Origin: Firmicutes bacterium HGW-Firmicutes-7
GTDB lineage: Bacteria > Bacillota > Clostridia > Lachnospirales > Vallitaleaceae
NCBI GenBank assembly: GCA_002841375.1
Contig: PGZO01000007.1
Location: 62,001-126,000, forward strand
DNA length: 64,000 bases
Direction of reading: 5' to 3'
Numbering within the stretch: the stretch's first letter is position 1; each line of letters opens with the position of its first letter. The translations under genes and the position numbers were made by a program. Shown in pieces: positions 20,148 to 25,783 of the stretch. Under the pieces are notes generated by a model. The model ran no database searches and was not told the DNA's origin. It was given only the letters and a program-made list of their open reading frames with translations.

Positions 20148-21002
20148 TTAAAACATTAATTCTGCAGTATATTGCGTACTAGATTTTTCCATTGCATACT
20201 GCTTTTGATTCTTATTCATATAAGCATCATAGGTCGTATCTACAATAATCCACCTGTTTTCACTACTTAGATATATTTCATTCCACGCATGATATACATC
20301 TGTTGTTGTTGATTGACCTTTAATTAGTTTTGTAGGTATGCCTTGGCTTCGTAACATTGAAGCTAAAAGCACGGAATAATCAAAACAAATACCCTTTTTA
20401 TCCTGAAGGATTACATCAATATCAGGTATATAATCAAATGTAAGTCTATCAATTTTCTCATGGTCATAATCAATATTTTTTACAATATAAGTATATAGCG
20501 TATCAATGATTTCTTTTTCTGAAAGCTCATATTGGCTATTTTGAGTTACTGCAATCTTGTCCTTCTTTGCGTCAGCTAACAACTTTTGAGATAATTTAAC
20601 AGCTAAGTTTGTTGCGTCCCATTTAACCTGTTGCGTTGATGCTAGAAAAACACTATTTATGGAATCAATTGTTACATTCCCAGATGCAGAATAAACATTT
20701 TTATATTTTGTACCGGTCGTATTTTCATAAATATTAACTGTATACTTTCCATTACCAAGTTGTAATGGGTAGTTCACATAGTCGATACAATTTGCGATGT
20801 TGTATATGTACGTTTCATCTCCACTTTGTATAACGAGTTTTGATTTAACATTACTTTCAGTATTCAATAGAACCTTGACAATTCCATTGCTGCTATAACT
20901 AAAGTCAACATCATATGCTGACGTATTTCTAGCTAATATATTAACACTTAATATGCCTGCCAATAAAACGATCATAATAAGGTAGCTAATTTTCCTTTTC
21001 AT
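20148..21002 (-). CDS. Exported transglutaminase-like protein under c-di-GMP riboswitch control
   Basis: A secreted protein of 284 aa. A signal peptide or anchor covers residues 1-25. The first half is beta-rich (about 30-130). The second half is a transglutaminase/protease-like core with the Cys-His-Asp triad in GICFDYSVLLASMLRSQG, VYHAWNEIY and WIIVDTTYD. It may crosslink or cleave cell-surface proteins. I use the ATG at 21002, 8 bp after AAGGAG. Its ribosome site directly follows the closing stem of a c-di-GMP-I aptamer, so production should respond to c-di-GMP. A sortase gene lies upstream in the same direction. Confidence 0.85.
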   Translation of the reverse strand: MKRKISYLIMIVLLAGILSVNILARNTSAYDVDFSYSSNGIVKVLLNTESNVKSKLVIQSGDETYIYNIANCIDYVNYPLQLGNGKYTVNIYENTTGTKYKNVYSASGNVTIDSINSVFLASTQQVKWDATNLAVKLSQKLLADAKKDKIAVTQNSQYELSEKEIIDTLYTYIVKNIDYDHEKIDRLTFDYIPDIDVILQDKKGICFDYSVLLASMLRSQGIPTKLIKGQSTTTDVYHAWNEIYLSSENRWIIVDTTYDAYMNKNQKQYAMEKSSTQYTAELMF

Positions 21003-21016
21003 AAGTACCACTCCTT

Positions 21017-21098
21017 CGATAACCGGCTACCCTTCAATAAAGCGAAAGGCCCAATGGTTTTGCGTCCCAATCTTACGATTGGTTTGCCTTTATCGGTA
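21017..21098 (-). promoter_or_regulatory. Cyclic di-GMP-I (GEMM-I) riboswitch, gene-proximal aptamer
   Basis: Minus strand: closing stem CGATAA (5') with TTATCG (3'); GGCAAACC; P2 capped by the GNRA loop GTAA; GGGACGCAAA; P3 CCTTTC/GAAGGG; and GGTAGCC. These are the conserved GEMM-I blocks. The 3' strand of P1 ends at the AAGGAG of the downstream gene, so control of translation initiation is plausible. Confidence 0.93.
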
Positions 21099-21107
21099 AT
21101 GAACGTA

Positions 21108-21198
21108 CAAAAAAACTCCCTTTCGGAGGCTAGGCTGCCATATGAATAGGCCCTGTAGCTTTGCGTCCCAATCTTTCGACTGGTTTGCCATTATCGGT
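21108..21198 (-). promoter_or_regulatory. Cyclic di-GMP-I (GEMM-I) riboswitch, distal aptamer with terminator
   Basis: A second aptamer upstream in tandem: GGCAAACC, P2 with GAAA loop, GGGACGCAAAGC and GGCAGCC. Its 3' end runs into a short GC hairpin (CTCC-GAAAG-GGAG) followed by seven T (about 21111-21127), i.e. a terminator. The P1 partner strand is not obvious, so ligand binding may work through competition with the terminator, or this copy may be weaker. Confidence 0.85.
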
Positions 21199-22076: not shown

Positions 22077-22634
22077 TTAATTGAATGTATTCATTGCCAC
22101 TTCAACACCACTGGAAATCATCTTCTCAACAGCCTTAGAAGCTTGTTCAACCGCGTCCACTACCGTTGGTAATTCATTCTTTTTAAACCTCGCCAATACA
22201 TAATTTGCCAAATCCCAGCCTGGTGGTTTTTCTCCAACCCCAAACTTTATTCTTTTGAATTCATTTGTCCCTATATGGCTTATAATACTTTTAATCCCAT
22301 TGTGTCCACCCGCACTTCCTTTGCTACGGATTCTTAAAATTCCAACATCTAGGCTTGTATCATCGTAAACAACAATCAAACTATTAATATCTGCTTTATA
22401 AAAGCTTAATAGTTCACTAACACATTCTCCACTTAGGTTCATATATGTCTGCGGTTTAACAACGATTACTTTTTCACCACAAACCACGCCTTGTCCTATT
22501 ATTGCTCTATGCTTTTTTATATTGATCTTAATGCCGTTATCATACGCAAAGCGTTCTACAACCTCAAAACCAATATTATGTCTAGTGGAATCATACTGTG
22601 ATCCCGGATTTCCAAGCCCTATTACGAAATACAT
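22077..22634 (-). CDS. pth: Peptidyl-tRNA hydrolase
   Basis: Recycles peptidyl-tRNA released from stalled ribosomes. MYFVIGLGNPGSQYDSTRHNIGFEVV holds the catalytic Asn and His; KPQTYMNLSG and VVYDDTSLDVG...GSAGGHNG are further signatures. 185 aa is normal. It has its own promoter (see 22678-22706). Confidence 0.96.
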   Translation of the reverse strand: MYFVIGLGNPGSQYDSTRHNIGFEVVERFAYDNGIKINIKKHRAIIGQGVVCGEKVIVVKPQTYMNLSGECVSELLSFYKADINSLIVVYDDTSLDVGILRIRSKGSAGGHNGIKSIISHIGTNEFKRIKFGVGEKPPGWDLANYVLARFKKNELPTVVDAVEQASKAVEKMISSGVEVAMNTFN

Positions 22635-22736: not shown

Positions 22737-22910
22737 AAAAAGAAGCCTCAAGCTATATTACATATCTTAAAGGCTTCTCCACATTCTAGTATCGTGCTAA
22801 AAGTATTTCCCCCACTTTTATTCGCACTAACGAGACCGATCTTTCCGATTCTAATCACGTTTCTATACTCTAATTTCCCCTTGCCATTTACAATAGCAAA
22901 TCGTTGCCGC
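22737..22910 (-). ncRNA. Candidate structured RNA divergent from agrBD (RNAIII-like position)
   Basis: A ~170-nt transcription unit on the minus strand: promoter TTGTTT-17-TATAAA (22917-22945), two clear hairpins (UUGCUAU-UGUAA-AUGGCAA at the 5' end; GUGC..UAAAAGU/ACUUUUA..GCAC in the middle) and a terminator GAAGCCT/AGGCTTC plus T-run (22737-22777). Its promoter has LytTR-like direct repeats in the same geometry as agrB. A 36-codon frame from GTG 22858 to TGA 22748 stays open through most of it, but it lacks a well-placed ribosome site and runs into the terminator stem, so I favour RNA. Identity with a known RNA family (for example 6S) cannot be excluded. Confidence 0.55.
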
Positions 22911-22916
22911 CTTTAT

Positions 22917-23063
22917 TTTATACAACTTTTACTCATTTAAAACAATAGAAAGTCGGTGAAACTGTATTTTCAGAACACAAAAATGCAACCAAAACATTTT
23001 CGTATTCTAATCTGACAATTTCAACTTCCAATGATTGAGTAAAAAATATCTCTCTGATAATAT
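22917..23063. promoter_or_regulatory. Divergent LytTR-type promoter region of agrB and the candidate RNA
   Basis: Rightward (agrB): ACATTTTCG (22994-23002), 12 bp, ACAATTTCA (23015-23023), 11 bp, TTGAGT (23035-23040), 17 bp, TAATAT (23058-23063). Leftward (RNA): GCATTTTTG (22978-22986), 12 bp, ACAGTTTCA (22957-22965), 11 bp, TTGTTT (22940-22945), 17 bp, TATAAA (22917-22922). The same repeat spacing and the same distance to the -35 occur on both sides. LytTR regulators such as AgrA bind paired 9-bp repeats about two helical turns apart. Binding by the regulator at 25040-25783 is an inference. Confidence 0.7.
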
Positions 23064-23101: not shown

Positions 23102-23695
23102 ATGTCATTTGATAAAACCATTACCTTCTTCGTCAATGCTGTTCAAGAAAACAAGCTTTTATCAGAAGAAGATATTTGCAAAATGAAGTATGGGATGCAA
23201 GTAACTTCAAATGAAGTTATAAAGATTTTAATATTTCTATTGTTGTTCGGGACTATTAGGAAACTTGATGCTTTTATTTTATCTTTTTTGGTTTTAGCTA
23301 CAGTTCGTAGCTTTGCAGGAGGCCTCCATTTTTATCGCTGGTCAAGTTGCTTTTTGTTTTCACTAGCTTTTTTTATAACAAATATTTTGATACTTCCAAA
23401 TATTGTAGTGATTAACAATAGCCTAGTTTATTACATAGTTGTATTGTTTTCAATAATTATTACATTGTTATTTGCACCTAAGCCTTCAAAGCACCGACCT
23501 GTTACACAAAAAAAATACATCTATAAAGCTAAAGGAACTGCATTCATTGTTACACTTACTTGGCTCCTTGTTTTATTTACATTCTTCAAGTACTCTCAGT
23601 TGTTTTCTATAGGGATATGGACTGTAACCTTACAAAACATCCAATTGATGATATCAGGAGGTCTAAAACATGAAAAAAATGTCAAAATTGTCTAG
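23102..23695 (+). CDS. agrB: AgrB-like autoinducer peptide-processing membrane protease
   Basis: Cleaves and helps cyclise the AgrD precursor. 197 aa with about five to six TM segments. The catalytic pair is visible: His76 in FAGGLHFY and Cys83 in RWSSCF, seven residues apart as in staphylococcal AgrB (H77/C84). It overlaps agrD by 26 bp. Its promoter has two LytTR-like repeats, suggesting positive feedback by the regulator encoded nearby. Confidence 0.93.
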   Translation: MSFDKTITFFVNAVQENKLLSEEDICKMKYGMQVTSNEVIKILIFLLLFGTIRKLDAFILSFLVLATVRSFAGGLHFYRWSSCFLFSLAFFITNILILPNIVVINNSLVYYIVVLFSIIITLLFAPKPSKHRPVTQKKYIYKAKGTAFIVTLTWLLVLFTFFKYSQLFSIGIWTVTLQNIQLMISGGLKHEKNVKIV

Positions 23696-23813
23696 CCAGC
23701 TTATCGCTTCTTTTGCTTTTGTTTTTATTGCAGTTGCTACCGTTACTTCAAGTGCTTATTGTTGGGTCTTTTGGGGAGAAACAGATTGCCCTGCTTGTTT
23801 AAGGAAACACTAA
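23670..23813 (+). CDS. agrD: AgrD-like cyclic thiolactone autoinducer precursor (47 aa)
   Basis: A small gene directly behind AGGAGG (inside the agrB 3' end). The peptide has a basic start (MKKMSKLSSQ), a hydrophobic amphipathic leader (to residue ~26), then SSAYCWVFWGETDCPACLRKH. By comparison with AgrD, Cys31 and the four residues after it (CWVFW) could form the five-residue thiolactone ring, followed by an acidic/Pro tail ending in LRKH. The tail holds an unusual CPAC pair (Cys40, Cys43). The stop overlaps the 3' end of the convergent kinase gene by 15 bp. Confidence 0.88.
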   Translation: MKKMSKLSSQLIASFAFVFIAVATVTSSAYCWVFWGETDCPACLRKH

Positions 23814-25043
23814 TGTAACAGTAATCCACCCAACCGAATTAACGATTTCTATTTTTCCATAATAACTCTCAACTATTTTATTAATATTATACAATCCATA
23901 TCCCCTATTATCACCTTTAGTAGAATATCCTTTTTTTAGAATATTGTTAATCATATCTTGCGATATAGGCAATCCCGTATTGGCTACCTCAATAATCTTA
24001 TGATCAGAATCATTCTTCATCGTAATGGTTATTCTTTTATCTCTGTCACCGCTTACTAAAGCTGCATCTTTTGCATTATCAATTAAATTTCCTATCACCT
24101 CTACCATTTCATAATCTTTTAATGGATATGATGGTAACGGCATATCATAAATAAATTCAAATTCAATGTTCTTACTTTGTAATTCAGAATTTTTACTATA
24201 CAAAAGTGCACTAATAATATTGTTATTCGTATTAAGAAACTTTTCGTTTTTATAAGAAGTCTGCATAACATCCTCAATATAAGTTGCTATTTGAGTATTT
24301 CTATCTAATTCCGCAATACTATATAGCGCTTGAAGATGATTTTTATAATCGTGTTGTTTTGTTTTAACTTCATCAATTAATCTTTCTAGTATAGGATAAT
24401 ACTCATTATAAATTTTGGCTATTTTTCTTCCTTCGTTTATTTTCACTATTTCTAAAAAAAGAATTATAACGATTAAAGTCCATATTATAATTGCTGTAAA
24501 TATTAACGATACATACTGCCAACTATTCGCTTGATTGCTGTCCCAAATTATACTATAAAAAACTACGGGTACCAATAGCACAAACATCAACGTATTGATG
24601 AAGCTTTGTTTTTTCAAATAAAAGACCAGCACCTTATTCAAAGGAAAAATCCTTACTATAAAATAAACAGCTACGATCAAAATGCTGTTTATTATAACGC
24701 CATTAAAAAAAGAGTATGTTGTGTTCTTTACAATTAAGAGTACGACCATTTGACATATTTGAACTGTGGCCAATATCACTATCACAAAAACGTGAAGAAA
24801 CAATCCTTGTAAATAGGGAATCCTCATCAGCACCTTGAACGCAATAACTGCAAATAAAAACCCCCAAAGCATACGCAAGGGTACATTAAAATATCCTACT
24901 AAAGTTCCTTCAATAATCATAAGTGAACTCCATACCATTACCATTTTTGAATCTTTGCTAAACCGCTCATCCGTATTATAAATAACCACGTAGTAAGCCA
25001 CAATTTCTAAAGCTGATAGAATGAACATTTGCCATAACTTCAA
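23799..25043 (-). CDS. AgrC-like sensor histidine kinase (GHKL domain)
   Basis: Probable receptor for the AgrD-derived peptide. 414 aa: six to seven N-terminal TM segments (residues ~1-205), a coiled linker, the H-box KQHDYKNHLQALYSIAELD (phosphoacceptor His near 240), and a GHKL ATPase domain with EVIGNLIDNAKDAA and GYGLYNI. It overlaps the upstream regulator gene by 4 bp (ATGA) and is convergent with agrBD, so peptide genes and receptor are on opposite strands. Confidence 0.9.
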   Translation of the reverse strand: MKLWQMFILSALEIVAYYVVIYNTDERFSKDSKMVMVWSSLMIIEGTLVGYFNVPLRMLWGFLFAVIAFKVLMRIPYLQGLFLHVFVIVILATVQICQMVVLLIVKNTTYSFFNGVIINSILIVAVYFIVRIFPLNKVLVFYLKKQSFINTLMFVLLVPVVFYSIIWDSNQANSWQYVSLIFTAIIIWTLIVIILFLEIVKINEGRKIAKIYNEYYPILERLIDEVKTKQHDYKNHLQALYSIAELDRNTQIATYIEDVMQTSYKNEKFLNTNNNIISALLYSKNSELQSKNIEFEFIYDMPLPSYPLKDYEMVEVIGNLIDNAKDAALVSGDRDKRITITMKNDSDHKIIEVANTGLPISQDMINNILKKGYSTKGDNRGYGLYNINKIVESYYGKIEIVNSVGWITVTLVFP

Positions 25044-25783
25044 TATTTGTCACCCCATTCAAATTTGCTCTTTAGATCTGCTTTGAATGTTTCTCCAATT
25101 AATGCTACTTTGTCATAATCGTCAAATATTACACTACTTGCACATCGATTATTATGTATGATACTTTTAATATAATGAACATTTACAATATATGCTTTAT
25201 GTGACCTAACGAAACAATCTGATTGTAGTAATTGTATTTTACTCATTATCTTTTTTAACGAAGTCTTAATTTCTTTATATACGCCCATCTTAGAATGATA
25301 GTAAACGAATCTACCCTGGGCTTCAATAAAATAAATATCGGATAATAGAATTTTATTCGTTATATTCCCACTCGTAATCGTTAAGTATTTCTTTTTATTT
25401 ATTGTTAGATCTTTTCCAATAATTTTTTCTAGCTTTCTAATAGTCTCTATAATCTTTTCCATTTTAAAGGGCTTCTCAATAAAGTCATAACAATGATAAT
25501 CATGTAAAGCTCTGGGCAAGAGCGTAATATGCGTTGTGATAAAAATAATTGGAGCAAGTTCATATCGTTCTATACTACGAATATTTTGCGCAATATCCAT
25601 TCCGCTAACATCAGGCAATTCTATATCCAATAAAAACATATCAATATAGTTATTTTCTAAAAATTCTATCGCTTTTTTCCCCGTCGCTGCTTCTAATACA
25701 CAACAACCAATAAAATTTTTTTGTATTGTCTTTGTAAGGCTTTTCCTCGTTATATCATTATCTTCAACTACAAGAAAGTTCAT
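25040..25783 (-). CDS. LytTR-family response regulator (AgrA-like)
   Basis: 247 aa. Receiver domain with VVEDND at the start, phosphoacceptor Asp in MFLLDIELPDVSGMD (near 53) and the Lys of EKPFKM (near 103); C-terminal LytTR DNA-binding domain (about 140-240) with YYHSKMGVYKEIKTSLKKIM and FVRSHKAYIVN. It is co-transcribed with the kinase. Likely targets are the paired 9-bp repeats between agrB and the divergent RNA. Confidence 0.92.
   Translation of the reverse strand: MNFLVVEDNDITRKSLTKTIQKNFIGCCVLEAATGKKAIEFLENNYIDMFLLDIELPDVSGMDIAQNIRSIERYELAPIIFITTHITLLPRALHDYHCYDFIEKPFKMEKIIETIRKLEKIIGKDLTINKKKYLTITSGNITNKILLSDIYFIEAQGRFVYYHSKMGVYKEIKTSLKKIMSKIQLLQSDCFVRSHKAYIVNVHYIKSIIHNNRCASSVIFDDYDKVALIGETFKADLKSKFEWGDKY

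Follow-up and report, generated by a model that had tools for sequence, protein, structure and literature searches.

A predicted structured RNA divergent from agrBD under mirrored LytTR-type repeats in a convergent clostridial agr locus

In Staphylococcus, AgrA activates the divergent promoters P2 (agrBDCA) and P3 (RNAIII, 514 nt). The agr-like locus described here raises the question of whether a clostridial agr system has an RNA effector of its own, transcribed divergently from agrBD under the same kind of LytTR repeats, as the initial annotation of this DNA had proposed. The locus lies in a 64-kb window, which is the whole stretch of DNA analysed.

Locus layout and mirrored promoters

The genes, promoters and repeats of the locus are listed below, with G001 denoting the one congener available for comparison.

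22077-22634, minus strand: pth, left neighbour of the divergent intergenic region
22706-22678, minus strand: separate pth promoter TTGAAC-N17-TATAAT, from a promoter scan, 83% conserved in the congener
22917..22945, minus strand: left (RNA) promoter TTGTTT-N17-TATAAA (-35 at 22945-22940, -10 at 22922-22917), read from the sequence, with the same hexamers and spacing in G001
22986-22978 and 22965-22957, minus strand: left LytTR-type repeats GCATTTTTG, N12, ACAGTTTCA, read from the sequence
22994-23002 and 23015-23023, plus strand: right LytTR-type repeats ACATTTTCG, N12, ACAATTTCA, read from the sequence
23035..23063, plus strand: right (agrBD) promoter TTGAGT-N17-TAATAT (-35 at 23035-23040, -10 at 23058-23063), read from the sequence
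23102..23695, plus strand: agrB, peptide-processing membrane protease (Pfam PF04647, 105.9 bits against a cut-off of 23)
23670..23813, plus strand: agrD, 47-aa precursor containing ...YCWVFWGETDCPACL..., from position and motif
23799..25043, minus strand: agrC-type histidine kinase (GHKL; Pfam PF14501 and PF02518)
25040..25783, minus strand: agrA-type response regulator with a LytTR domain (Pfam PF00072 and PF04397), the presumed binder of the repeats

Pfam bears out the AgrB protein, the GHKL sensor kinase and the local LytTR-domain protein at 25040-25783 that had been named as the regulator, but the gene order is not that of a single agrBDCA operon. The agrC-agrA pair is transcribed towards agrBD, such that the two pairs are convergent, tail to tail, and the same order is found in a related subfamily. 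The agrD product was without a match in the Pfam scan; it is called AgrD from its position, its motif (a cysteine ring region and then a GE-type tail) and relatives that occupy the corresponding position in other loci. The ends of agrC and agrD share 15 bp (23799-23813), and the distance between their stop codons ranges from overlap to close adjacency (-6 to +18 bp) in 20-odd loci from several families, representing nearly all convergent loci, which leaves no space for a terminator between them. Transcripts of agrBD could run antisense into agrC at 23799-23813, and in most convergent agr loci. Elsewhere in the window (21014-21198, minus strand), two c-di-GMP-I riboswitch aptamers of the GGC type occur in tandem upstream of the gene for a secreted transglutaminase-like protein (20148-21011), beside a sortase-like gene.

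Direct reading of the sequence between pth and agrB revealed two divergent promoters with mirrored repeat pairs. This confirmed the initial annotation, which had described 9-bp repeats with a 12-bp gap and 11 bp to the -35 on each side, as well as a promoter belonging to pth itself. The geometry is identical on both sides (9-bp repeats, N12 between them, N11 to the -35 and N17 to the -10), and the pairs are centred approximately -61.5 from the expected starts. Upstream of the predicted RNA stand two LytTR-type repeats 21 bp apart, as at small RNA promoters of the VirR/RgaR type. The two members of a pair agree at 7/9 positions on the right and 5/9 on the left, where the distal repeat and the -35 (TTGTTT) are the weak points, and of the four repeats only one has the G that is canonical in LytTR sites (ACAGTT). 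Both promoter spacers are 17 bp, compared with 18 and 20 in P2/P3 of S. aureus (PMC4227749), so promoter leakage is possible.

Chance occurrence was evaluated with a site defined as two cores 21 bp apart, each with no more than one mismatch to ACATTT, plus a promoter at that spacing, a core taken independently from the sequence preceding agrB in other genera of the order. Exactly two sites in the 64-kb window fit, namely the right and left arrays. Simulated DNA gave 0.9 sites per 64 kb, and a divergent pair in none of 300 simulated 64-kb stretches. Across the whole 4.08-Mb genome, the right site was the sole one-mismatch match and the best for repeats and promoter together. Compared as inverted repeats, the two 30-bp arms are identical at 21/30 positions, a value reached by 5 of 150 shuffles; the congener arms are identical at 24/30, and its best arm (25/30) was reached by no shuffle. 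The left site alone was not significant in the window by a generic score, and its congener copy had p 0.013. No large regulon was visible genome-wide, with matches close to those of a reversed-pattern control (44 vs 36; 39 vs 26), and a search for an exact ACAGTTTCA pair in this genome gave none. Because the scan returned no clear excess of sites elsewhere, the RNA is the only evident regulon partner of agrBD.

The predicted RNA and its conservation in a congener

The RNA is predicted to have the following parts.

22737..22910, minus strand: predicted small RNA of ~174 nt, start expected near 22910 and end at the T-run past the terminator (promoter and terminator by sequence, fold and homologue)
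22830..22860, minus strand: hairpin H2, ACGUGAUUAGAAUCGGAAAGAUCGGUCUCGU, nearly invariant (fold; 88% identity to the congener)
22794..22827, minus strand: hairpin H3, a G-rich apical loop GGGGGAA(A)U on an AU-rich stem (fold and congener comparison)
22742..22777, minus strand: terminator hairpin GAAGCC...GGCTTC followed by a T-run (sequence and fold; kept in the congener)

The hairpin-rich unit of ~170 nt that had been annotated past the left promoter, ending in a terminator, is present by sequence and fold. The ~174-nt unit folds into three to four hairpins at -41.7 kcal/mol (z -2.1). A consensus terminator scan missed its terminator because the hairpin is interrupted, and the pth promoter lies ~30-60 bp beyond it. 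The Rfam scan proposed along with the annotation returned no match for the unit at the gathering threshold or at E<=10, so by Rfam it does not belong to a housekeeping family such as 6S. No ORF in the unit is conserved between the window and G001; a GTG-initiated frame of 36 codons (22748-22858) is shifted and truncated by insertions in G001. The H2 core had zero matches in a scan of genome contigs, and a query of the same contigs with the regulator protein gave only distant Bacteroidota matches.

In G001 the same neighbouring genes, the RNA, the left promoter and all four repeats are present. Both agrB and agrD are deleted, and the kinase (L051:5157-5942) has an in-frame loss in its sensor part, covering approximately residues 14-168, and carries changes in its N box (DNA to DHA) and G box (GYG to GYK); the regulator, at 75% identity, is intact. 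As far as its sequence can be read, this is a degenerate agr locus that retained its output, which suggests that a regulator-RNA pair can outlive the signal. Since the RNA survives there without agrBD, it is not strictly tied to the agrBD signal.

Between the two species the RNA is 77% identical over its body, with 88% identity in H2, 84% in H3 and 79% in the left promoter, compared with 41-59% at four-fold sites, which are close to saturation. Conservation of the repeats in a related genome, on which the annotation had staked its reading, was borne out, with the four 9-mers identical at 31/36 positions and the 12-bp spacers at 15/24. The left promoter of G001 keeps the hexamers and spacing of the window, and its left repeats (ACATTTTTA/ACAGTTTTA) keep their distance to the -35 and are nearer the consensus than those of the window. 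The loop-closing U-A pair of H3 is C-G in G001, a compensatory change read by hand, and the GGGGGAA loop is conserved. The covariation check that had been suggested thus yielded one compensatory pair, but covariation is thin because the RNA is known from two species only. Given hairpins and a promoter conserved above four-fold sites, the compensatory change in H3 and the broken GTG frame, the unit most likely represents a non-coding RNA that, like its promoter, is under selection.

Divergent units at other convergent agr loci

A covariance model of the RNA, searched over 392 genomes of the order, found only the two congeners, all other scores being <=25 bits; judged by this search, the RNA is restricted to its genus. 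A 53-bp DNA match in G016 falls inside an ftsX-like gene and was rejected as chance.

The convergent subfamily comprises 19 loci below 1e-45 with the AgrB profile in the 392 genomes, and further convergent agr loci occur in other orders of the class. Inverted repeat arrays and a divergent promoter are often present in the related loci. When a fixed geometry was applied (9-N12-9, 10-11 bp, -35, 16-18 bp, -10), forward sites were found upstream of agrB in G001 C9, G000 C30, G028 and G005, and divergent sites in G028, G055, G471b and G564 (p 0.005-0.013 against shuffles, per locus and uncorrected for their number). Regulator similarity and site type showed only a loose relation.

Genus g8, in the same family, has a divergent site that three species conserve, although each copy taken singly is weak (p 0.05-0.19). 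Past it lies a divergent unit of ~180 nt (L097:4202-4386, minus strand; L098:7633-7807, plus strand; L099:9644-9820, plus strand) which is 82-88% identical between species over alignment columns, compared with 46-74% at four-fold sites. This unit folds into four hairpins with three compensatory pairs and a loop GAGGGGAAG on an AU-rich stem. The RNA model built from it recognises g8 agr loci specifically, and no homology to the window RNA was detected, as each model misses the other. The gene for a small acidic protein follows ~100 nt downstream, for which reason the g8 unit may be a leader of that gene rather than a free RNA. In the two species of genus g29 (four-fold sites 31-36%), the stretch just past the divergent start is conserved, and both have a hairpin-plus-T-run terminator on the divergent side. 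The conserved non-coding stretch upstream of agrB in that genus, TAGGTCGACC...AATCTAGT, lies at L059:5303-5622 (minus strand) and L063:6136-6455 (minus strand).

The divergent promoter faces protein genes in G028, G471 and G564; in the latter two it seems to reach secreted proteins past a leader, not an RNA. Inverted arrays in G076 and G104 are without an obvious divergent RNA. The motif GGGGA occurs 10 times on the divergent strand (1.9 expected) and once on the forward strand (0.5 expected), an enrichment that serves as no more than a lead, given the non-independence of the loci. One cluster in G471 (L123, L124) contains several copies of agrB together with agrC fragments, which suggests duplication and decay of an agr locus. 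At L094, L095 and L096 two different agr systems adjoin, the convergent type being followed by a second agrB/agrD/agrC set.

We put forward a broader reading tentatively, with somewhat less than even confidence: that convergent clostridial agr loci have a standing architecture, an inverted LytTR array flanked by two divergent promoters, whose divergent slot is filled by lineage-specific effectors. In two or more genera (that of the window, g8 and perhaps g29) these would be structured RNAs unrelated to one another, and elsewhere proteins; a functional module, a G-rich GGGGA loop borne by an AU-rich hairpin, may be common to the RNAs. On this view, RNAIII would be a single case of a general design, one that has arisen or been refilled repeatedly.

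Proposed mechanism, alternatives and comparison with known systems

The locus is probably a peptide quorum-sensing module of the agr type, in which one inverted array of LytTR-type half-sites drives two outputs, agrBD feedback and, as the main one, the ~174-nt RNA. AgrB and AgrD would make a cyclic peptide sensed by AgrC, and phosphorylated AgrA would bind both direct-repeat pairs, each ~61 bp upstream of a start. Rightwards, AgrA would activate agrBD as positive feedback; leftwards, it would activate a free RNA of ~174 nt ended by its own terminator before pth. The RNA, probably the chief output since no other strong sites were seen, may act by base pairing or protein binding through H2 and the G-rich H3 loop, its obvious candidate contact points. 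The mechanism is supported by the geometry and chance tests, by conservation of the RNA and left promoter, including in a species with an intact AgrA and no agrBD, by the same spacing at the agrB and divergent sides of other loci, and by the structured RNA of g8. Also in support is the precedent of C. difficile, in which the LytTR regulator RgaR directly activates agrB1D1 and the small RNA SpoZ (PMC10602386). Against it stand the weak left distal repeat and -35, the canonical G in one repeat of four and the 17-bp spacers, and retention of the RNA without agrBD in the congener implies some independence from this signal.

The same weak distal repeat and 17-bp spacer, together with the RNA that G001 keeps without agrBD, would suit a genus-specific small RNA outside agr control, constitutive or otherwise regulated, lying by chance beside an agrBD promoter with partly symmetrical repeats. 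We consider this unlikely, as G001 retains the left repeats at an unchanged distance from the -35 and in a form nearer the consensus, the repeats are better conserved than their spacers, and other genera share the inverted array. It is less likely still that the unit is a regulated 5' leader or attenuator of pth, with partial read-through tying peptidyl-tRNA hydrolase to cell density. Although the unit is on the pth strand and directly upstream in both species, its terminator and the separate pth promoter that follows are conserved in both, and the analogous divergent units of other genera adjoin a different gene.

A short peptide encoded by the unit, as hld is in RNAIII, would find its reading frame in the 36 GTG-initiated codons and is very improbable; no ribosome-binding site precedes the frame, G001 does not preserve it, and conservation falls in hairpins, not codons. 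We give equally little credence to symmetrical repeats that only load the regulator for agrBD, with the left promoter and terminator as decaying remnants lacking a functional product. Relatives such as G076 and G104, with their inverted arrays and no obvious divergent RNA, would fit such decay, but in the window's genus H2 and H3 remain 84-88% identical, against 41-59% at neutral sites, in a species without agrBD. An agr-controlled small RNA working in place of RNAIII is most likely what the unit represents.

The description of this RNA as RNAIII-like holds for layout and not for the molecule. As in S. aureus, a structured RNA stands divergent from agrB, each promoter has two direct repeats centred close to -60 (AgrA repeats of P2/P3 lie at about -60; PMC4227749), and the two-component pair encoded at the locus is of the same type; binding of the regulator to the paired repeats is predicted. 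The sequence, size, coding content and loops differ. The window RNA is approximately one third the size of RNAIII, has no Rfam match, and lacks an hld-type ORF or other conserved peptide ORF. Its conserved loop is G-rich (GGGGGAA) and UCCC is absent, whereas the loops of RNAIII are C-rich and pair with ribosome-binding sites. Identity with RNAIII is thus ruled out by size, Rfam, ORF content and loops. At the locus level, agrC-agrA is convergent with agrBD here and part of a single operon in S. aureus, and the spacers differ as described above.

Among clostridia, the VirS-VirR system of C. perfringens, with VR-RNA, VirT and VirU, likewise combines an AIP-responsive kinase, a LytTR regulator and small RNA effectors (as cited in PMC10602386); unlike the regulator proposed here, VirR is reported not to activate agrBD, and the RNAs are not described as divergent partners of agrBD. 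RgaS-RgaR of C. difficile is closer, having a LytTR regulator, agrBD and a small RNA as targets, and two direct repeats 21 bp apart (PMC10602386). There, however, agrBD and spoZ are listed as distinct promoters within a set of several targets, the orphan kinase and regulator are encoded elsewhere, and the loop is reported not to be autoregulatory (PMC10602386), whereas kinase, regulator, signal genes and RNA all share one locus here. In a search of open-access papers, which excludes most subscription journals, we found no account of an RNA divergent from the agr genes in any non-staphylococcal locus, and such an RNA is reported as not described in this group. If the locus works as drawn, the conjunction of signal genes, sensor, regulator, self-directed repeats and divergent RNA would contradict earlier generalisations, and the unrelated RNA in the same slot of a second genus makes the repeated evolution of an RNA-output design directly askable. 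The theme of LytTR regulator, agr and small RNA is already known in clostridia from SpoZ and VR-RNA; the new part is the physical arrangement of the P2/P3 type.
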